Shown here piece after piece: positions 26,496-35,806 of a stretch of 39,077 nt of DNA. The position numbers and the translations under genes are program-made. Positions within the stretch are counted from its first letter, which is position 1. Each line of letters begins with the position of its first letter. Source of the DNA: Leptolyngbya sp. Heron Island J (GTDB taxonomy: Bacteria > Cyanobacteriota > Cyanobacteriia > Phormidesmidales > Phormidesmidaceae); NCBI RefSeq assembly GCF_000482245.1, contig NZ_AWNH01000014.1, positions 1-39,077 of the forward strand, in the 5' to 3' direction. Below the pieces are notes generated by a model, which did no database searches, was not told where the DNA came from, and worked only from the letters and a program-made list of their open reading frames with translations.

Positions 26496-28319
26496 TCATA
26501 GGTTTCGGTTTTTATACTGTCTTCGTAGTTCTCGTCGCAAAATCTTTTGGGAGGCTGTACGGGGAAGTTCATTAACAATGACAACATCTTTAATCCGGAA
26601 AAGAGGGTTTAAAGATTGTCGAATTGCCTGCTGACAGCAGTTCTGCAAATCAGCAGGTTGTTCAGATGAACTCAGCACCACATAGATTACCAGTTCGCTG
26701 GGACCATGGGATGTGCTGGCAATGGCAGCAACCTCTCGCACATTAGGCAACGCTTGCAGCACCCGTTCAATCTCAACGGCACTGACTTTGATGCCCCCCA
26801 AATTCATCGTGTCATCCACTCGTCCTTCTGCTCGATAATAGCCATTAGGCAGTTTTACCAGACGATCGCCATGACGGCGTAGCGGGCAGTACGGGGTGCC
26901 GTCAAAGTAAACCTGATGGTGATCGTGATTGAGTAACGTGGTGGATAGGCCGATGGACGGCGGGACAATAAAGGCTTCACCCGTATTGTTGGGATGGCCC
27001 TGGTCATCAAGGATAACCACCGCTAGCCCGAGGGCCGGGGTGGAAAATGTCGATGGATAAGCGGGCTGCACCAGGGTGCCGGTAATGTAACCGCCACCGA
27101 TCTCTGTGCCGCCGCAATATTCAATCACCGGCTTGTGGTCCCCCAGGGCCATCAGAAACTTCATATCCGCCGAATTTGAGCATTCACCTGTGGAGCTAAA
27201 GGCTTTGATGCGATGCCAGTCTAGATCGGTCATGCAGCCGCTGCGCCGCCAGGCACTGACTAAACTGGGAACGACTCCCAAAATGGTGACTCCAGCAGCT
27301 TGAATAAAAGCACCAAATCCGCGTTCTAGGGGCGCATCACCATATAGGGCCATCGTCGCCTGATTGAGCATAGTAGCGTAGATCAGCCAGGGGCCCATCA
27401 TCCAACCCAGACTAGTGGGCCAGGCAGCCACATCCTCTGGATGAATGTCGTGGTGCAAGTGACCATCCGTAGCACACTTAATTGGGGTGGTATGGGTCCA
27501 GGGAATAGCTTTTGGAGTTCCTGTCGTTCCAGAGGAAAAGAGAATGTTGAGGGGGGTATCTGGCTGGCACGGGACCGCCGTAAACTGATCATCCTCACTC
27601 AGAAAATCATCCCAGCTTAGATCTCCTGGACGTAGGCTACAGGGCAATTCTGTGGGCATCACCACAGCCCGGGGGGCAACAGCCATGACCAATTTGCTAT
27701 AGAGGGGCAACTCCTGACCTCGTCGTCGCAGGCTGACTTGGGTAAAGACGCCCTGCGCCTGCCCCAGGTGGAGCCGCGTAGCGATTTCTACCGGGGCAAA
27801 ACTATCGGCAATGGCAACCACCACACCCCCCATTTTGATGATGCCGAGATAGATGGCAACGGCTTCTACGGTCATGGGCATGACGATTGCGATCGCATCC
27901 CCCGCACCATAGCCCGCCGCCACCAGTCCATTCGCCACTCGGTTCACCAACCGCTCCAGCTCACCATAGGTCCAGTACTGCAGCGGCTCACCTGGCGCTT
28001 GAAAAATCACCGCCGTATCCGTCTTGGGTGCTAAAAAGCAGCTCTCCACAATATTAAATCGAGCATTCACTAACCAGTGGGGCTGTTCCACACCGTCCCT
28101 GAGGTCCAAAACAGTGGTGTAAGGCTGTTGAAACTGAATGCCCAGCCGCTGAATCATCTGATGCCAAAACTGATCGCGATGTTCAATGGACCACTGGTAT
28201 AGCTGAGCGTAGCTATCGAACCTCAGCTGGCGTTGCAGGGCAGTAATATTCGTACGCTGGATCTGGTCAGTAGTGGGACACCAGACAGATTGGTTATTGG
28301 GGAGAGTAGCAAGAGACAT
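26496..28319 (-). CDS. Acetoacetyl-CoA-synthetase-like acyl-CoA ligase
   Basis: 607 residues of the ANL (AMP-forming) superfamily. The N-terminal cap with LRFDSYAQLYQWSIEHRDQFWHQM and a C-terminal domain place it in the acetyl/acetoacetyl-CoA synthetase group. Motifs: ATP loop LFSSGTTGTPKAIPW, ATP/AMP motif YCGGTEIGGGY, hinge YRAEGRVDDTMNLGGIKVS and catalytic Lys in RTASQKILRREL. It is the last gene of the minus-strand tyrosine operon. Homogentisate breakdown ends in fumarate and acetoacetate, so activation of acetoacetate to acetoacetyl-CoA is the natural job. An activity on another acid cannot be excluded. Confidence 0.75.
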   Translation of the reverse strand: MSLATLPNNQSVWCPTTDQIQRTNITALQRQLRFDSYAQLYQWSIEHRDQFWHQMIQRLGIQFQQPYTTVLDLRDGVEQPHWLVNARFNIVESCFLAPKTDTAVIFQAPGEPLQYWTYGELERLVNRVANGLVAAGYGAGDAIAIVMPMTVEAVAIYLGIIKMGGVVVAIADSFAPVEIATRLHLGQAQGVFTQVSLRRRGQELPLYSKLVMAVAPRAVVMPTELPCSLRPGDLSWDDFLSEDDQFTAVPCQPDTPLNILFSSGTTGTPKAIPWTHTTPIKCATDGHLHHDIHPEDVAAWPTSLGWMMGPWLIYATMLNQATMALYGDAPLERGFGAFIQAAGVTILGVVPSLVSAWRRSGCMTDLDWHRIKAFSSTGECSNSADMKFLMALGDHKPVIEYCGGTEIGGGYITGTLVQPAYPSTFSTPALGLAVVILDDQGHPNNTGEAFIVPPSIGLSTTLLNHDHHQVYFDGTPYCPLRRHGDRLVKLPNGYYRAEGRVDDTMNLGGIKVSAVEIERVLQALPNVREVAAIASTSHGPSELVIYVVLSSSEQPADLQNCCQQAIRQSLNPLFRIKDVVIVNELPRTASQKILRRELRRQYKNRNL

Positions 28320-28393: not shown

Positions 28394-28418
28394 GCAACTA
28401 ACTAAGAACTAAGAACTA
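28394..28418. repeat. Heptamer tandem repeat (AACTAAG type)
   Basis: AACTAACTAAGAACTAAGAACTAGCAAC: about three units of a 7-base repeat just after the diiron-protein stop region, a short tandem repeat of the kind common in cyanobacteria. Confidence 0.45.
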
Positions 28419-29341
28419 GCAACGTCTTCTCCCTTCAGGCGATCGTCATTCAACCCATCCCAAAACACAGCAATCGCCTCTAAAATCTCTTGTCCCCCTT
28501 CAAGAAACTTGTCGTGATTAAATCCAGGATGGAAGTACACCGACTCCAGTTCTTCTAAAGTATGGCCAGCATGCTGGGCCTCTACCCGGTTATGCCAGGT
28601 GAAGAAAGCCAGCTTTAGCTGAGGATGGCGACTCTGTTTTATTTTTAAGAGACCGTCTTCTAGCTCTTGCCAGAAGCCAGCGGCGGCCCAGTTTTCGACG
28701 GCAAAACTGGATCCTTCGGCAATGTTGGGATCGTCGCTGCCATAGAGACGAATCAGCTCATCGCAAAAGTGGAGTGTTGTAGCACTGCCGTGTTTACGCT
28801 GTCCCAACTCGTCATAGGTCAGTTCCAAGCCTTCAGCGACGCTCAAAAGCCACTCAAAGTGGGCAGCCCGAAATCGGCAAATACCACCGTCAACAGTGCC
28901 TTCAGTACTAACTAAGGCTGGATCTCCCTGACGATCTTTGTCATTCTCGCTCAGGGTAGTGAGAGTCTTGTCTACAGCCCTAGGATTACGATAAATCACC
29001 CCCAGCTCATTGAGTAAAATCTCACGACTGGCCCGTGACTGGTCCAATGTGGGGGCATTGATTACCTTATTGAGGGCAGCGACTAAAAACTGATTTGAAA
29101 ATACTGAAAACTGTTGAACAAAGTGACGTAATTCTTGATCACTGGCTAAACCCTGGCTAAACCAGTGGGTATAGGCATTGTCTAAAATAATACGATGGTG
29201 TAAAAATCGTCGTTCAACCTCACTTAAAAAGCCTTGAAACGTCTCAACCTGTTGAGATGCTAGCTCACCGCGATAGAGACGAGTTTGAATTCGGGAAGAA
29301 ATTTTTAGAGGTTTAGGCGGAGAAAGCAGTGTATAGGTCAT
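28409..29341 (-). CDS. Haem-oxygenase-like diiron oxidase family protein in the tyrosine operon
   Basis: 310 residues, all-helical, of the 'iron-containing redox enzyme' (HDO; TENA/PqqC/haem-oxygenase-like) family. Possible iron ligands fall in the expected helices: Glu in REILLNELGVIYRN, His and Glu in RFRAAHFEWLLSVAEGLEL, and His/Glu/His in FTWHNRVEAQHAGHTLEELE. Which six bind iron cannot be settled by eye. It lies between homogentisate dioxygenase and the acyl-CoA ligase, 73 and 89 bases away, on the same strand. The established pathway has no step for it. It may oxidise a side product, act on a related aromatic, or replace a missing activity. Confidence 0.75.
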   Translation of the reverse strand: MTYTLLSPPKPLKISSRIQTRLYRGELASQQVETFQGFLSEVERRFLHHRIILDNAYTHWFSQGLASDQELRHFVQQFSVFSNQFLVAALNKVINAPTLDQSRASREILLNELGVIYRNPRAVDKTLTTLSENDKDRQGDPALVSTEGTVDGGICRFRAAHFEWLLSVAEGLELTYDELGQRKHGSATTLHFCDELIRLYGSDDPNIAEGSSFAVENWAAAGFWQELEDGLLKIKQSRHPQLKLAFFTWHNRVEAQHAGHTLEELESVYFHPGFNHDKFLEGGQEILEAIAVFWDGLNDDRLKGEDVASS

Positions 29342-29414: not shown

Positions 29415-30611
29415 TTATTGAAGTGTTAATTTCCGAGATTTCAAGGGCAACCAGCTATAGACATAATCAACATCCTCAATAGCGCTGGCCTGGGTTGTTA
29501 CCCGCAGCGGTCGGAAGGTGTCGATCATAACCGCCAGTTCTTCGGTGCGAGACTTACCAATGGAAGCCTCATAGGTACCGGGATGAGGACCATGGGACAG
29601 TCCGCTGGGATGGAAGGTAATCGAACCACGCTCAATGCCTTTACGGGACATAAAATGACCCTCGACGTAGTAAATTACTTCATCCGAGTCGACATTGGCA
29701 TGGTTATAGGGGGCAGGAATTCCCTGGGGATGATAGTCAAACAAACGTGGGACAAACGAGCACACGACAAAATTAGGTCCTGCAAATGTTTGATGCACAG
29801 ATGGAGGCTGATGAACCCGTCCGGTAATGGGTTCAAAGTCTTTGATATTAAACGCGTAGGGCCATACACTGCCATCCCATCCCACCACGTCTAGGGGATG
29901 ATGGGTGTAACAGTATTGGGTGAGGCTGCCCCTGGCTTTCACTCGTACTTCAAAGACTCCAATTTCATCATGGGTCAATAGTCTCTCCGGTGGGCGAATA
30001 TCGCGCTCACAGTAGGGAGCCTGTTCTAAAAATTGTCCCTGGGGACTGAGATATTGCTGCGGTGTCCGGATATGCCCCGAGGCTTCCAGTGATAGATGGA
30101 TTTGCGCCACTCCTCTTTCTGGTATCAGCCGCCAAAGAATACCTGCCGGAATCATTAGATAGTCTCCTGAGCGATAGTGAAGTTCTCCCAGCTGACTTTC
30201 CAAACGCCCCTTGCCCTGGTGAATAAACAAAAGTTCATCCCCATGGGCAAAGCGATACCAGTAGGTCATGGGCTTGTTAGGATGGGCGATGGCAAGGGTG
30301 ACATCGGCATTGGAGAGTAAGGGAATGCGAGATGCGATCGCGTCGACCTGGCAGTTCGCATCTCCCCCGGCCTCTGCTGTTCTAAAATGTCGCGGTCGTA
30401 ATGCCTCAGACTCTTCATAGGTCAACCGGGTTACCCCAATCACATTCACCTGCGCAATCTCCGTAGGTGGGCGCAGATGGTACACCAGCGAGTGATTGCC
30501 AGCAAATCCCTGGTTACCAATCAGTTCCTCATGGTAGAGAGTGCCATCGGGCTGACGAAATTGGGTGTGGCGTTTATGGGGGATCTGGCCCAGGTGAGTG
30601 TAATAGGTCAT
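29415..30611 (-). CDS. hmgA: Homogentisate 1,2-dioxygenase
   Basis: 398 residues, a full-length cupin-fold homogentisate dioxygenase that opens the aromatic ring of homogentisate to maleylacetoacetate. Signs are the N-terminal IPHKRHTQFRQPDGTLYHEEL and the C-terminal iron site PYNHANVDSDEVIYYVEGHF, giving His and Glu, with a third His in FHPSGLSHGPHPG. It overlaps the HPPD stop by four bases (ATGA), so the two are translationally coupled. Unlike cyanobacteria that use homogentisate only for tocopherol, this organism can evidently degrade it. Cytosolic. Confidence 0.93.
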   Translation of the reverse strand: MTYYTHLGQIPHKRHTQFRQPDGTLYHEELIGNQGFAGNHSLVYHLRPPTEIAQVNVIGVTRLTYEESEALRPRHFRTAEAGGDANCQVDAIASRIPLLSNADVTLAIAHPNKPMTYWYRFAHGDELLFIHQGKGRLESQLGELHYRSGDYLMIPAGILWRLIPERGVAQIHLSLEASGHIRTPQQYLSPQGQFLEQAPYCERDIRPPERLLTHDEIGVFEVRVKARGSLTQYCYTHHPLDVVGWDGSVWPYAFNIKDFEPITGRVHQPPSVHQTFAGPNFVVCSFVPRLFDYHPQGIPAPYNHANVDSDEVIYYVEGHFMSRKGIERGSITFHPSGLSHGPHPGTYEASIGKSRTEELAVMIDTFRPLRVTTQASAIEDVDYVYSWLPLKSRKLTLQ

Positions 30612-31717
30612 GCCATCCTCCCGACCGGCTCAAGGTTGCCACGGCGGGCCTGCTCTCGCTCAATAGCTTCAAACAAAGCTTTAAAGTTACCCTCGCCAAA
30701 GCTAGTAGCCCCATGTCGCTCAATAATCTCGAAAAATAGAGTGGGACGATCTTCCACCGGCTGGGTAAAAATTTGTAGCAAATAGCCCCTGGCATCGCGA
30801 TCGACTAAAATACCTAACTCAGCCAGCTCATCAATAGGCTCCTTAATCTTCCCCACCCGTGCTTCTAAACTGTCGTAGTAAGTCAGCGGAGTCTTCAGAA
30901 AAGCCACACCGGCTGCTTTCAGCCGTCGCACCGTATGGATAATATCTCGGGTGGCTAGGGCAATGTGCTGCACTCCAGGTCCATTGTTAAATTGCAAATA
31001 TTCATCAATTTGAGACTGGCGCTGACCTGGCGCAGGCTCGTTGATCGGTAGCTTAATCTTGCCGGTTGGATCTTGGACCACCTTGGACATCAGGGCCGAG
31101 TATTCAGTGACAATGGTTTTGTCATCGAAGTGTGCCAACAGTTCAAACCCCAGGGCCTGGATAAAAAAGTTAACCCATCGGTCCATCGCTCCTAACTCGA
31201 CATTACCCACTACATGGTCAATCTCAAATAAACCGGTTTCTCTCCGGGAAGGAATAGTTTCAGAGTAGGGTACAAATCCAGGGGCAAATATGCCGTGGCG
31301 ACGTTCAACAAACTTAAAGAGCACATCTCCATAGCCATGGATAGCTGCAAACCTCCACTGACCGGCCTCAGTGTCAATGCTCGTTGGCGGAATTGCTGCC
31401 GTTGCCCCATGTTGTAACAATGTTTGATAAACCTGACGGACGTCGGTCACTGTAAACGCAATTACAGCCACACCATCACCGTGACGGGCAAGCATCTCAC
31501 TGATGGTATTGTCATCCCCTAGACCACTACTCAACACAAATTGAATGTGACCTTGCTGTAGTAAATAAGAGGCTGCCTTACGATAGCCAGTCTCTAAGCC
31601 GCGAAACGCAATGGGGGCAAAGCCAAACTGCTGCTCATAAAAGTAAGCGGCCTGTTTAGCATTACCCACATAAAATTCCAAATGATCCAAACCCACCAGG
31701 GGACAAATAGTCTTCAT
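30608..31717 (-). CDS. hppD: 4-Hydroxyphenylpyruvate dioxygenase
   Basis: 369 residues, two VOC domains. It converts 4-hydroxyphenylpyruvate and O2 to homogentisate and CO2. The first VOC half begins GLDHLEFYVGNAKQAAYFYEQQFGF. The iron-binding second half has IDHVVGNVELGAMDRWVNFF (first His), GVQHIALATRDI (second His) and FFEIIERHGATSFGEGNF (Glu), all present. It is the first gene of the minus-strand operon, with an AGGAGG about 14 bases before the ATG. A TATAAT on the minus strand lies about 200 bases upstream. Confidence 0.93.
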   Translation of the reverse strand: MKTICPLVGLDHLEFYVGNAKQAAYFYEQQFGFAPIAFRGLETGYRKAASYLLQQGHIQFVLSSGLGDDNTISEMLARHGDGVAVIAFTVTDVRQVYQTLLQHGATAAIPPTSIDTEAGQWRFAAIHGYGDVLFKFVERRHGIFAPGFVPYSETIPSRRETGLFEIDHVVGNVELGAMDRWVNFFIQALGFELLAHFDDKTIVTEYSALMSKVVQDPTGKIKLPINEPAPGQRQSQIDEYLQFNNGPGVQHIALATRDIIHTVRRLKAAGVAFLKTPLTYYDSLEARVGKIKEPIDELAELGILVDRDARGYLLQIFTQPVEDRPTLFFEIIERHGATSFGEGNFKALFEAIEREQARRGNLEPVGRMA

Positions 31718-32056: not shown

Positions 32057-33037
32057 ATGGTCGCCCCCTCTCTCCGATTACTTCTATCAACGTTAGTCGA
32101 CTATGCAGGACTCTTCCCTCCTGCACGGTTAAATTTGCCAGCAGCGGTTGCTGCCTATGAGTATTACAACACCACTGCCCATCGTTGGATGCTCGGTAGA
32201 TTTGTTCTACCCCTGTCGCAGCTAACACAGTTTGAAGATTGTTTAAATCACTTGGCTCAACAATATGCCGCTGCCTTCTGGCCCCTTAGTGTTGTTCTAC
32301 CTCCCTCAATCCAAGCATTAGAGATGTTAGCGCCGTGGTTAGAAAACCCAAGCCGATTTACAATTTCAGCACTTGAATTTAAATTGGGCGCAGTAGATAC
32401 GAACAGACGAGTTGGCGCTGACACGATCGCATCTCTCATCCCCCACTTACCTCCCCGCAGCACTCTCTTTTTTGAAGTGCCTCTGGATGCGACACTCACT
32501 GACTACATTGCCGTCCTCCAGGGCACTCGAGCAGCTGTCAAGGTCCGTACGGGGGGGCTGACCGCAGCTGATTTTCCCACCGTTGAAGCCCTAGCCCAGT
32601 TTCTGGTCACCTGCGCTGCGGCCCGACTTCCCTTTAAAGCGACTGCCGGACTACACCATCCGTTACACAGCTGGCAAACCTTGCCCAACGGTGATTCGGT
32701 TCAGATGCATGGCTTTCTTAATCTGGCGATCGCAGCCGCTTTTGCCTATGGCTATGGGGCAACTGCAGCCGAGATTGCTAGCATTTTACAAATCGATACC
32801 CTCAATGATCTAATTTTCTCGGAACACGAGATTATTTGCCATAGCCCCCTCTGGTTACAGGAATCAGAGCTATCCACAATAGCGGGACATTTACCATTAG
32901 ATATCCTTGCCCGTGTACGCAGCCGTTATTTCTTAGGAATTGGTTCCTGTTCTTTCCAAGCACCCTTGGCCGAGCTTTACCGTTTGAAGCTGTTCAATGA
33001 TCCTGCGTCGATACCGTCCTATGTCCTCTCTACCTGA
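32057..33037 (+). CDS. Unknown protein coupled to fumarylacetoacetase (326 aa)
   Basis: I do not recognise a named domain. The 326 residues are cytosolic, with no signal peptide or membrane helix. Conserved-looking segments are TLVDYAGLFPPARLNLPAAVAAYEYY, HRWMLGRFVLPLSQL, AAVKVRTGGLTAADFP and LPFKATAGLHHPLHSW. Regular alternation of strands and helices with KVRTGG and KATAGLHHP at strand ends suggests a TIM-barrel-like enzyme; this is a guess from pattern. It is divergent from the hppD operon and overlaps the following fumarylacetoacetase gene by 17-41 bases, so it should act in the same pathway. The isomerisation of maleylacetoacetate is the one step otherwise unassigned here. Confidence 0.75.
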   Translation: MVAPSLRLLLSTLVDYAGLFPPARLNLPAAVAAYEYYNTTAHRWMLGRFVLPLSQLTQFEDCLNHLAQQYAAAFWPLSVVLPPSIQALEMLAPWLENPSRFTISALEFKLGAVDTNRRVGADTIASLIPHLPPRSTLFFEVPLDATLTDYIAVLQGTRAAVKVRTGGLTAADFPTVEALAQFLVTCAAARLPFKATAGLHHPLHSWQTLPNGDSVQMHGFLNLAIAAAFAYGYGATAAEIASILQIDTLNDLIFSEHEIICHSPLWLQESELSTIAGHLPLDILARVRSRYFLGIGSCSFQAPLAELYRLKLFNDPASIPSYVLST

Positions 33038-34331
33038 CACCACCCATGACCCACATCGACAAAGCTGGGTCGCCAGTGCCAACACTCTAGACACTGATTT
33101 CCCTATCCAAAATCTCCCCTTTGGTGTGTTTCAACGGCATCAATCACAGCCCCGGATAGGAGTGGCCATTGGTAAACACATTGTGGATTTGTCGATTTGC
33201 ATCCAACACAATATCCTGGATGATTTACCAGAACTGGTCAAAGCCGCCTGCTTGGCCACCAATTTGAATCAGCTCATGGCTTTGGGACAACCAGCTATCA
33301 AGACCTTGCGCCATCAGCTTAGCCAGTTACTTGAAATATCAACCACGCCTCCTGAGCAACAGATTTTGGTGCCCATGGCCGATGTCAAAATGTTGTTGCC
33401 TGTTCAAATTGGCAACTATACCGATTTTTATGCCTCGATTAATCATGCCACCAACGTTGGTAAGTTATTCCGCCCCGATCAACCACTGTTGTCAAACTAC
33501 AAACACATTCCCATTGCCTATCATGGCCGTGCCTCATCCATTGTGGTGAGTGACACTCCCATTTATCGGCCCCAAGGCCAACAGCACCCTGCAGCCTCAG
33601 AAAAACTCCCAGGGTTTGGTCCCAGTCAACGCCTCGACTATGAGGGAGAAGTAGGGCTATTCATTGGCCAGGGAAACCCTTTAGGACAGCCGATCGCAAT
33701 TGACCATGCCGAAGACCATTTGTTTGGCCTGTGCTTGGTCAATGACTGGTCTGCCCGCGATATTCAAGCGTGGGAATACCAACCCTTAGGCCCCTTTTTA
33801 GGTAAAAGTTTTGCCACCAGTCTGTCTCCCTGGGTTGTCACACTGGATGCGCTTGTCCCTTTCCGCTGCCCATCCTTTGAGCGCCCTGTAGATGATCCAC
33901 AACCACTCCCCTATTTAAAGATGGCTGATGATTTGACTGGAATTAAGCTGACTGTGGAGGTATGGTTACGATCAGCCCAGATGTTGCAGGAAAATATACC
34001 GCCTATACACCTCAGTCAGGCATCGTTTGCCCAACTTTATTGGACAGCTGCCCAGATGATTACCCATCACACCAGCAACGGCTGTAATCTACAGCCAGGG
34101 GATTTATTAGCCAGTGGCACGATTTCAGGCACCACATCGGATACCTGGGGTTCACTCTTAGAGATTACCCACCAGGGCAAAAAGCCCATCCAGTTACCCA
34201 CGGGAGAACAGCGCTTTTTTCTGGCTGACGGTGACGAAATCAGTTTACGAGGATATTGTGAGGCACCAGGTTACAAAAAAATTGGGTTTGGCGAATGTCG
34301 GGGACAAGTTCTCTCTGCAGTCACTAAATAA
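33021..34331 (+). CDS. fahA: Fumarylacetoacetase
   Basis: 436 residues from ATG 33021 (an ATG at 32997 is also possible; neither has a clear ribosome binding site because the gene is coupled to the one before). It hydrolyses fumarylacetoacetate to fumarate and acetoacetate. The SH3-like N-domain carries SWVASANTLDTDFPIQNLPFGVF. The catalytic domain has YTDFYASINHATNVG, YHGRASS, LDYEGEVGLFIG (metal Glu), LVNDWSARDIQAWEYQPLGPFLGKSF (metal Asp) and SGTISG near the end. Length and motifs are those of the eukaryotic-type enzyme. It closes the plus-strand half of the tyrosine locus. Confidence 0.93.
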   Translation: MSSLPDTTHDPHRQSWVASANTLDTDFPIQNLPFGVFQRHQSQPRIGVAIGKHIVDLSICIQHNILDDLPELVKAACLATNLNQLMALGQPAIKTLRHQLSQLLEISTTPPEQQILVPMADVKMLLPVQIGNYTDFYASINHATNVGKLFRPDQPLLSNYKHIPIAYHGRASSIVVSDTPIYRPQGQQHPAASEKLPGFGPSQRLDYEGEVGLFIGQGNPLGQPIAIDHAEDHLFGLCLVNDWSARDIQAWEYQPLGPFLGKSFATSLSPWVVTLDALVPFRCPSFERPVDDPQPLPYLKMADDLTGIKLTVEVWLRSAQMLQENIPPIHLSQASFAQLYWTAAQMITHHTSNGCNLQPGDLLASGTISGTTSDTWGSLLEITHQGKKPIQLPTGEQRFFLADGDEISLRGYCEAPGYKKIGFGECRGQVLSAVTK

Positions 34332-34541: not shown

Positions 34542-34626
34542 GGATTTTTGCTAAGACATTATGTTTTTTGTCAAAATCAACACAGTATTAAATATTTTCT
34601 TCACACTATAGGTATCTCCTAATGTG

Positions 34627-34662
34627 CTCCGAATACCTTGACAGTGAAATGTCACTTCGGAG
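34627..34662 (+). promoter_or_regulatory. Hairpin sequestering the ribosome binding site of the leucine-dehydrogenase-like gene
   Basis: CTCCGAA (34627-34633) pairs with TTCGGAG (34656-34662), and inside it TGACA (34639-34643) with TGTCA (34650-34654). The outer right arm contains most of the Shine-Dalgarno CGGAGGA of the ATG at 34673. A -35/-10 candidate is TTGTCA, 17 bases, AATATT further upstream (about 34570-34600). Confidence 0.5.
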
Positions 34663-34672
34663 GAAACCTATA

Positions 34673-35806
34673 ATGAAGAATATATTTGAGTTTGGTGACT
34701 CTCTAGGGCCAAACAAAATTGTTCATATTTATGACCACCATAGCGGATTAAAAGCTATTCTCGTGGTAGATAACGTTGCTTGTGGTCCTGCCATGGGAGG
34801 CGTTCGCATGGCTCCCGATGTCACTACGGAAGAAGTCTTTCGACTGGCACGAGCCATGACGTTTAAGAATGCAGCAGCCAATCTCCCCCATGGTGGTGGG
34901 AAAGCGGCTATTCTTACTAACCCAAAAGTGCCTGCAGTAAAAAAAGAAACCTTGATGAGAGCTTTCGGGGTAGCCATTAAAGAAATAACTAGCTACATTC
35001 CCGGCCCCGACATGGGCACAGATGAAGCCTGTATGGCTTGGGTGCAGGAGGAAACAGGTAGAGCCATTGGTTTACCATCAGCAATTGGTGGTATTCCCTT
35101 AGATGAAATTGGAGCCACTGGCTATGGTCTTAGCGTTGTTGCCGATGTGGCCAGCGAATTTTGTTCTATTGATCTGAGCAAAGCCAAGTTTGTGATTCAA
35201 GGAGCTGGTTCAGTAGGGCTGCATGCAGCCAATTTTCTAACCGCCAGGGGAGCCCTTTTGATTGCTGTAACCGACTCCCAGGGCACCTTGTTTAATGCTG
35301 ATGGCATCGACATTGATCAACTGACAGAATTAAAACATCAAGGCAAGAGTGTGCTTGATTATGCTGACGGAGGTAAACTGTCTCGTGATGCTATTATTGA
35401 TGTTCCTTGTGATATCTGGATTCCTGCGGCTAGACCCGATGTTATTGACGCTGACAACGTAGATCGGCTCAAGACTAAACTGGTTATTCAAGGAGCCAAC
35501 ATTCCATTTACAGCTAAGGCAGAACAAATCTGTCATGACCGCAATATCCTGGTCATCCCTGACTTTATTGCCAATGCGGGTGGTGTGATTTGTGGGGCCG
35601 TAGAATATGGCGGTGGTACCAAGGAGATCGCGTTTCAAACCATTGAGGAAAAAATTCGCAAGAACACAACTCTAATATTGGAAAACGTTGCAAGTACGGG
35701 TAAGCTCCCTCGACAAATTGCAATTGAGATAGCTGAACAGCGCATACGCAGAGCTACAGCTTATCGCAGTAAGCGCCATGGCCCTGGATTACAGCTGATT
35801 GCGTAG
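34673..35806 (+). CDS. Glu/Leu/Phe/Val dehydrogenase family protein, leucine-dehydrogenase-like
   Basis: 377 residues from ATG 34673, behind CGGAGGA; an upstream ATG at 34622 lies outside that context. NAD-dependent oxidative deamination of a branched-chain or aromatic amino acid to its 2-oxoacid. The substrate lysines are Lys65 (TFKNAAANL) and Lys77 (GGGKAAI). The catalytic Asp is in PGPDMGTDEA, the Rossmann motif is VIQGAGSVGLHAA, and INAGG-like IANAGGVICGAVEYGG follows. Next to tyrosine catabolism and a 2-oxoacid decarboxylase, Phe, Tyr or Leu could be its substrate; the sequence does not decide. Confidence 0.85.
   Translation: MKNIFEFGDSLGPNKIVHIYDHHSGLKAILVVDNVACGPAMGGVRMAPDVTTEEVFRLARAMTFKNAAANLPHGGGKAAILTNPKVPAVKKETLMRAFGVAIKEITSYIPGPDMGTDEACMAWVQEETGRAIGLPSAIGGIPLDEIGATGYGLSVVADVASEFCSIDLSKAKFVIQGAGSVGLHAANFLTARGALLIAVTDSQGTLFNADGIDIDQLTELKHQGKSVLDYADGGKLSRDAIIDVPCDIWIPAARPDVIDADNVDRLKTKLVIQGANIPFTAKAEQICHDRNILVIPDFIANAGGVICGAVEYGGGTKEIAFQTIEEKIRKNTTLILENVASTGKLPRQIAIEIAEQRIRRATAYRSKRHGPGLQLIA

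Follow-up and report, generated by a model that had tools for sequence, protein, structure and literature searches.

Textbooks describe the breakdown of tyrosine via homogentisate, but in none of 29 Acidobacteriota genomes that have fumarylacetoacetase (FAH) was the maleylacetoacetate isomerase MaiA found. A locus of Leptolyngbya sp. Heron Island J raises the same question: which protein isomerises maleylacetoacetate? The window, meaning the whole stretch of DNA analysed (39,077 nucleotides of contig NZ_AWNH01000014.1), encodes 4-hydroxyphenylpyruvate dioxygenase (HPPD), homogentisate 1,2-dioxygenase (HGD) and FAH, as a sequence-only reading had claimed. Profile matches confirm all three, the HGD being divergent. 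That reading also described a protein, here called X, that overlaps fahA and is divergent from hppD, and saw no glutathione-type isomerase beside it. The open reading frame bears out this arrangement, and zero of the genome's MaiA- or GST-profile matches are in the window. X is probably a maleylacetoacetate cis-trans isomerase, non-homologous to MaiA, that acts between HGD and FAH. We infer this role from linkage to and co-occurrence with FAH, the absence of MaiA where tested, a predicted TIM barrel and invariant residues at its strand ends. X thus represents one concrete, testable family for the gap, present in several phyla. If the assignment is correct, an unrelated enzyme would join the glutathione transferase known for this step, the pathway could be called complete in many genomes, and biocatalysis would gain an imine-plus-cysteine cis-trans isomerase.

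Table 1. Features of the window, codons of selected residues of X, and related features at other loci
Feature	Location	Strand	Remarks
Candidate maleylacetoacetate isomerase (X)	32057..33037	+	326 aa, ATG start; DERA-like TIM barrel by model
Fumarylacetoacetase, fahA (FAH)	32997..34331	+	TIGR01266 533 bits, cut-off 375
4-hydroxyphenylpyruvate dioxygenase, hppD	30608..31717	-	TIGR01263 424 bits, cut-off 277; divergent from X
Divergent homogentisate 1,2-dioxygenase (HGD)	29415..30611	-	Pfam HgmA_N 34 bits, HgmA_C 27 bits, both above cut-offs
310-aa protein	28409..29341	-	
Acyl/acetoacetyl-CoA synthetase-like protein	26496..28319	-	AMP-binding, ACAS_N and AMP-binding_C above cut-off
Glu/Leu/Phe/Val dehydrogenase	34622..35806	+	adjoins fahA
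K162-V-R164 codons	32540..32548	+	strand beta6 (159-164, DSSP of model); K162 proposed Schiff-base lysine
K194-A-T-A-G-L-H200-H201 codons	32636..32659	+	on/after strand beta7 (193-196); K194 proposed pKa-lowering lysine
C298 codon	32948..32950	+	directly follows strand beta8 (292-297); proposed as the protein's own thiol nucleophile
E107 codon	32375..32377	+	near end of strand beta4 (101-109)
E140 codon	32474..32476	+	end of strand beta5 (136-140)
Own-genome X paralogue	L127 4916-5917	-	G000:C103
Distant members after FAA_hydro_N_2 genes, not fahA	L018 65-1498, 1504-2382; L019 416-1483, 1480-2445		
DinB_2 protein	L122 6229-6735	+	between FAH and CoA transferase
Flavin-reductase-like gene	L216 7351-8274	+	also L189, L190, L192, L195, L206, L220, L221, L228, L229, L238

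X is a real gene, because an orthologue with 90% identity occurs in unchanged gene order in Leptolyngbya sp. PCC 7375 and the dN of 0.046 and dS of 0.22 between the two indicate purifying selection. Proteins of the orthologous cluster in PCC 7375 are 90-96% identical to those of the window. With fahA starting at its called position, 32997, X and fahA overlap by 41 nt; another in-frame ATG lies at 33021, and a start there would reduce the overlap to 17 nt. The gap between X and the divergent hppD is 339 nt. Against TIGR01015 the HGD of the window scores 61 bits, well under the cut-off of 511. The synthetase-like protein has its top NCBIfam score with an acetoacetate-CoA ligase model, below cut-off, and is a possible acetoacetate sink.

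Two other genes of the locus deserve mention. The 310-aa protein has no Pfam family and only a chance-level BesC match (E 0.12). Its homologues (70-96% identity) accompany HGD in 13 of 85 loci, each with a cyanobacterial title, and one is also on a Kovacikia plasmid; the protein is a partner of the homogentisate cluster of cyanobacteria and has no annotation. The Glu/Leu/Phe/Val dehydrogenase is below every NCBIfam cut-off and may supply an amino-acid deaminating step. The same dehydrogenase type occurs near hppD on a Tsukamurella plasmid (L171).

We rejected the assignment of X to a recognised family, since searches of Pfam (E <= 10), NCBIfam (E <= 1) and PHROGs returned no family and a sequence search of the PDB gave nothing beyond chance. 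A PDB profile search with the family alignment (A2, 78 sequences) also gave chance-level matches only (best E 0.11; 1mzh, a chain of deoxyribose-phosphate aldolase (DERA, DeoC), E 0.57). The alignment excludes six loci with a stop codon inside the extended translation (L037, L045, L053, L082, L085, L094), the window itself (L016) and a degenerate own-genome paralogue (L020). X has no match to a GST family, a DinB family or the FAA_hydrolase domain (PF01557). A Pfam search of the 78 members gave one of them a chance-level MDMPI_C score (E 6.5).

The family is widespread. At least 579 stretches in the GTDB contig collection encode relatives of X, and by record title the best 80 include Cyanobacteria, Acidobacteria, Planctomycetes, Gemmatimonadota, Chlorobi and Chloroflexi, with one locus (L025) titled Gracilibacteria. 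The family occurs on 24 plasmid records, from Streptomyces, Pseudonocardia, Rhodococcus, Tsukamurella, Nonomuraea, Priestia and one cyanobacterium; all 22 annotated matches are called "hypothetical protein" and the other two records are unannotated. One query of a phage collection found zero family members. The best matches from the open-access PMC literature treat neither this family nor any maleylacetoacetate isomerase that works without glutathione, which is not proof of absence. We conclude that the family is real and large, that its enzymes belong to homogentisate catabolism and that it has escaped annotation.

FAH lies downstream of X on the same strand in 63 of the best 80 loci, within 150 nt in 52 of these. 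Fourteen loci have no FAH in the stretch examined, though at least 400 nt downstream are covered, and three of them (L026, L029, L031) adjoin an HPPD-HGD cluster; three others of the 80 have less than 400 nt of downstream sequence. The sequence-only reading had proposed co-occurrence with fahA as a check on its idea, and this is found in two samples of genomes. Among 149 Acidobacteriota (the phylum of L046, whose record title names Acidobacteria), the family is present in 23 of 29 genomes with FAH and in 0 of 120 without (Fisher one-sided p 8e-22, relatedness ignored). The second sample comprises 148 genomes from the same phylum as L043, which is a MAG of Chlorobi type (Bacteroidota in GTDB); here the counts are 22 of 55 and 0 of 93, or 17 of 55 and 0 of 93 for the core family when five divergent paralogues are removed. 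A single-protein query of 194 genomes of the window's own phylum found FAH above cut-off in two, the window's genome and G185, and both have the family.

The association is more than linkage, since in at least one genome (G458) the core family gene and FAH are on separate contigs (C6 and C4). This genome also bears on the idea that X is a non-catalytic partner of FAH, a chaperone or channelling subunit, which would suit genes that overlap or nearly touch. Such a role is highly improbable given the separate contigs, and given the invariant charged residues and cysteine that the model places at the strand ends of the barrel.

The plasmids give a compact view of the pathway. Neighbours were taken from the annotation, or from tblastn for two unannotated records. 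In all 12 records examined, of the 24 with the family, FAH directly follows X. HGD is directly upstream of X in seven of the 11 non-cyanobacterial records examined (two Streptomyces, Pseudonocardia, Nonomuraea, Tsukamurella and two Rhodococcus), and two of these HGD-X-FAH records have a CoA transferase after FAH. The two Rhodococcus HGDs are annotated as "cupin domain-containing protein"; by tblastn they have 43-44% identity to the HGD of the window. Two more Streptomyces plasmids have X-FAH with no HGD in the stretch. One Priestia plasmid has the order hppD-X-fahA-transaminase-HGD-permease and encodes, from tyrosine on, every step except the isomerisation; the stretch from a second Priestia plasmid begins at X. 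For the plasmid gene sets of Priestia and Tsukamurella, only the isomerisation lacks a gene and only X lacks a step.

These gene sets bear on a different role for X, in which it would be an aldolase of class I (lysine type) or resemble a hydrolase, and would clear a toxic by-product such as a reduced or wrongly cleaved derivative of fumarylacetoacetate, while the isomerisation is spontaneous or brought about by free thiols. The DERA-like fold with two lysines described below would suit an aldolase equally well, and FAH can evidently run without X, as 44 of the 84 genomes with FAH in the two samples lack the core family. We nevertheless consider this role unlikely. In Priestia and Tsukamurella the isomerisation is the only unassigned step between hydroxyphenylpyruvate and fumarate plus acetoacetate, and on a Sphingobium plasmid with the order phhA-HPPD-HGD-FAH-MaiA it is MaiA that occupies a slot beside FAH. 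An enzyme for a by-product should accompany MaiA as well, yet 0 of the 24 plasmid records with the family are proteobacterial and none is among the best 60 of 231 plasmid matches to MaiA. Overall, plasmid records number 119 with FAH, 24 with the X family and 231 with MaiA relatives, and the tallies of FAH and the family are equal in Streptomyces (11 and 11) and in Priestia (6 and 6).

Searches for the MaiA profile (TIGR01262) covered the window's own genome, 49 family-bearing genomes and 149 Acidobacteriota. The genome of the window, of 8.06 Mb, was the first place in which a maiA homologue had been suggested for a search; the best of its seven MaiA-profile matches reaches 86 bits against a cut-off of 171. 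It also has 11 GST_N_3 matches. The 49 are those covered among the genomes of the best 80 loci. None of them has MaiA above cut-off. In 37 the profile finds nothing at E <= 0.001, and the remaining 12 have sub-cut-off matches (eleven cyanobacteria and one planctomycete, the last marginal). None of the 149 Acidobacteriota, including the 29 with FAH, has MaiA above cut-off. Among 14 control genomes one has a match above cut-off, which shows that the profile is able to recognise MaiA. X and MaiA were never found together above cut-off in any genome tested. The absence of maiA where the family is present, which the sequence-only reading had anticipated, is thus what we see in the genomes covered, and a normal maiA that accompanies X widely was not found.

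The AlphaFold model of X (AlphaFold2, 78-sequence alignment) is an eight-stranded alpha/beta (TIM) barrel with a pLDDT of 91.9 and a pTM of 0.91. In a VIA-align search with this model, rows 1-10 are DERAs or designs from them (Z 14.0-12.7), and the best match has Z 14.0 and an rmsd of 4.1 A over 221 aligned residues at 12% identity. The list includes an engineered DERA that catalyses Michael additions and the KE70 design, which presumably starts from DERA. Homocitrate synthase is next at Z 12.5, so the likeness to DERA is real but its margin is small. Foldseek places IMPDH first (E 7e-5); we rejected IMPDH as the closest relative, since the TM-score is only 0.39 and VIA-align ranks DERA first.

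By model and VIA-align, X therefore has a TIM-barrel fold of the DERA type. By position, K162 and K194 on model strands 6 and 7 of X may correspond to the lysines on beta6 and beta7 of DERA, an acid on beta4 and an aspartate on beta1 may likewise have counterparts there, and the G-S-C-S turn after beta8 of X resembles G-A-S-S of DERA. However, the invariant R164, H200 and C298 of X have no obvious counterpart in DERA by eye, X adjoins FAH in most loci, and the window's genome has its own separate DERA (L161). When the family alignment was compared with 27 DERAs by hhalign, the score fell short of significance (probability 1.8%, E 0.027); the lone alignment obtained weakly pairs the K194 motif with the K201 motif of DERA. 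PF01791 and TIGR00126 do not match X and are absent from the Pfam matches of the 78 members. As the profile-profile comparison is not significant, we describe a DERA-like fold and do not make X a member of DERA.

X resembles MaiA, a zeta-class glutathione transferase, in its proposed reaction and its place in the pathway, beside HGD and FAH as on the Sphingobium plasmid. Unlike the thioredoxin-like fold of a GST, X is a predicted TIM barrel; the model is neither GST-like (a thioredoxin-like N-domain and a helical C-domain) nor a DinB four-helix bundle. The mycothiol-dependent maleylpyruvate isomerase has a DinB fold. That enzyme is likewise a non-GST solution to an analogous isomerisation, according to extracts from PMC3937715. 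DinB proteins are four-helix bundles with a metal, as extracts from PMC10950700 describe them, whereas X is a barrel.

Conservation was assessed in 114 sequences, reduced to 104 at less than 90% identity; the set excludes the degenerate own-genome paralogue, the five divergent paralogues and identical copies. Invariant in all 104 are D15, A17, P22, E107, E140, K162, R164, G167, P174, K194, T196, A197, G198, L199, H200, G219, G296, C298 and P303. In the model D15, E107, E140, K162/R164, K194 and C298 are on or after the later part of strands 1, 4, 5, 6, 7 and 8, respectively. The active site of a TIM barrel is at the C-terminal ends of its strands. Judged from these strand ends, the invariant residues may converge in one pocket.

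We tentatively propose that X could isomerise maleylacetoacetate with no thiol cofactor, by reversible Michael addition, with the substrate bound as an imine to a lysine and a cysteine of the protein in the place of glutathione. The C4 ketone of maleylacetoacetate would form an imine with K162 (beta6), whose pKa would be lowered by K194 (beta7). The iminium would activate C2=C3, and C298 would add to C2 in a Michael addition, doing from within the protein what glutathione does in MaiA. C2-C3, now a single bond, could then rotate; expulsion of the thiol would leave a double bond in trans, and fumarylacetoacetate would be set free once the imine is hydrolysed. R164, H200 and H201 may hold the carboxylates and E107 and E140 may move protons. 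For DERA, extracts from PMC6244999 describe a Schiff base on Lys167, the pKa of which is probably perturbed by Lys201, and an attack of the Cys47 thiol on the beta carbon of lysine-bound crotonaldehyde, again a Michael addition. By analogy, this Cys47 chemistry is the addition half of the isomerisation proposed for X. If the thiol-free reading is true, a textbook step would have a second chemical solution, widespread in bacteria and plasmid-borne too.

Alternatively, X may isomerise maleylacetoacetate with a bound low-molecular thiol (bacillithiol, mycothiol or glutathione) in place of its own cysteine. Priestia use bacillithiol and actinobacteria use mycothiol, and both are among the carriers of X. 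Such isomerisations use a thiol cofactor in the examples described in extracts from PMC10950700 and PMC3937715. The same invariant residues, including C298, occur across lineages that use different thiols, and a common thiol-binding site would be odd, which makes this variant decidedly unlikely.

Some copies of X have lost parts of the proposed active site. The genome of the window has a second copy with 69% identity (G000:C103:112996-113916), which has lost K162, R164, E140, A197 and H200 and keeps K194, E107 and C298. No FAH is near it in the surrounding 11 kb, and it looks like a degenerate or repurposed paralogue. The five divergent paralogues of the second sample (L239-L243) lack R164, H200 and C298 and keep K162 and K194. 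They are away from FAH, near a HemN-like gene by eye, and all five genomes have FAH.

No family match was found in six of the 29 FAH-containing Acidobacteriota genomes and 33 of the 55 in the second sample (39/84). The X family is thus either one solution among several, with other isomerases in these genomes, or the step is open to a bypass and not strictly needed. A recognised substitute is present in only one of these 39 FAH neighbourhoods, few genes of which are annotated, and in the 33 second-sample genomes no family member is within ~6 kb of FAH, even with a wider profile. The one case is G282, a FAH-containing Acidobacteriota genome in which FAH and a CoA transferase flank a DinB_2 protein; this protein is a possible thiol-dependent isomerase of a third kind and a plausible substitute. 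The cyanobacteria keep many GSTs, and one of their sub-cut-off matches to the MaiA profile could also isomerise maleylacetoacetate.

A flavin-reductase-like gene (PF01613) is close to FAH in seven of the 33 family-negative neighbourhoods of the second sample and beside FAH in three genomes that hold only a divergent X paralogue. In these ten genomes, none of which has the core family, the gene is next to FAH or one gene away. It is absent from the core-family loci of the second sample, of which ~4 to 12 kb each were examined. This neighbour may represent a different solution for the isomerisation, or have an unrelated role.

Distant members of the family occur in a related setting. In the window's own phylum, those of G001 and G016 directly follow a FAH-superfamily gene with a FAA_hydro_N_2 domain, and they keep the invariant residues. 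This arrangement hints at a sister pathway that includes a related isomerisation.
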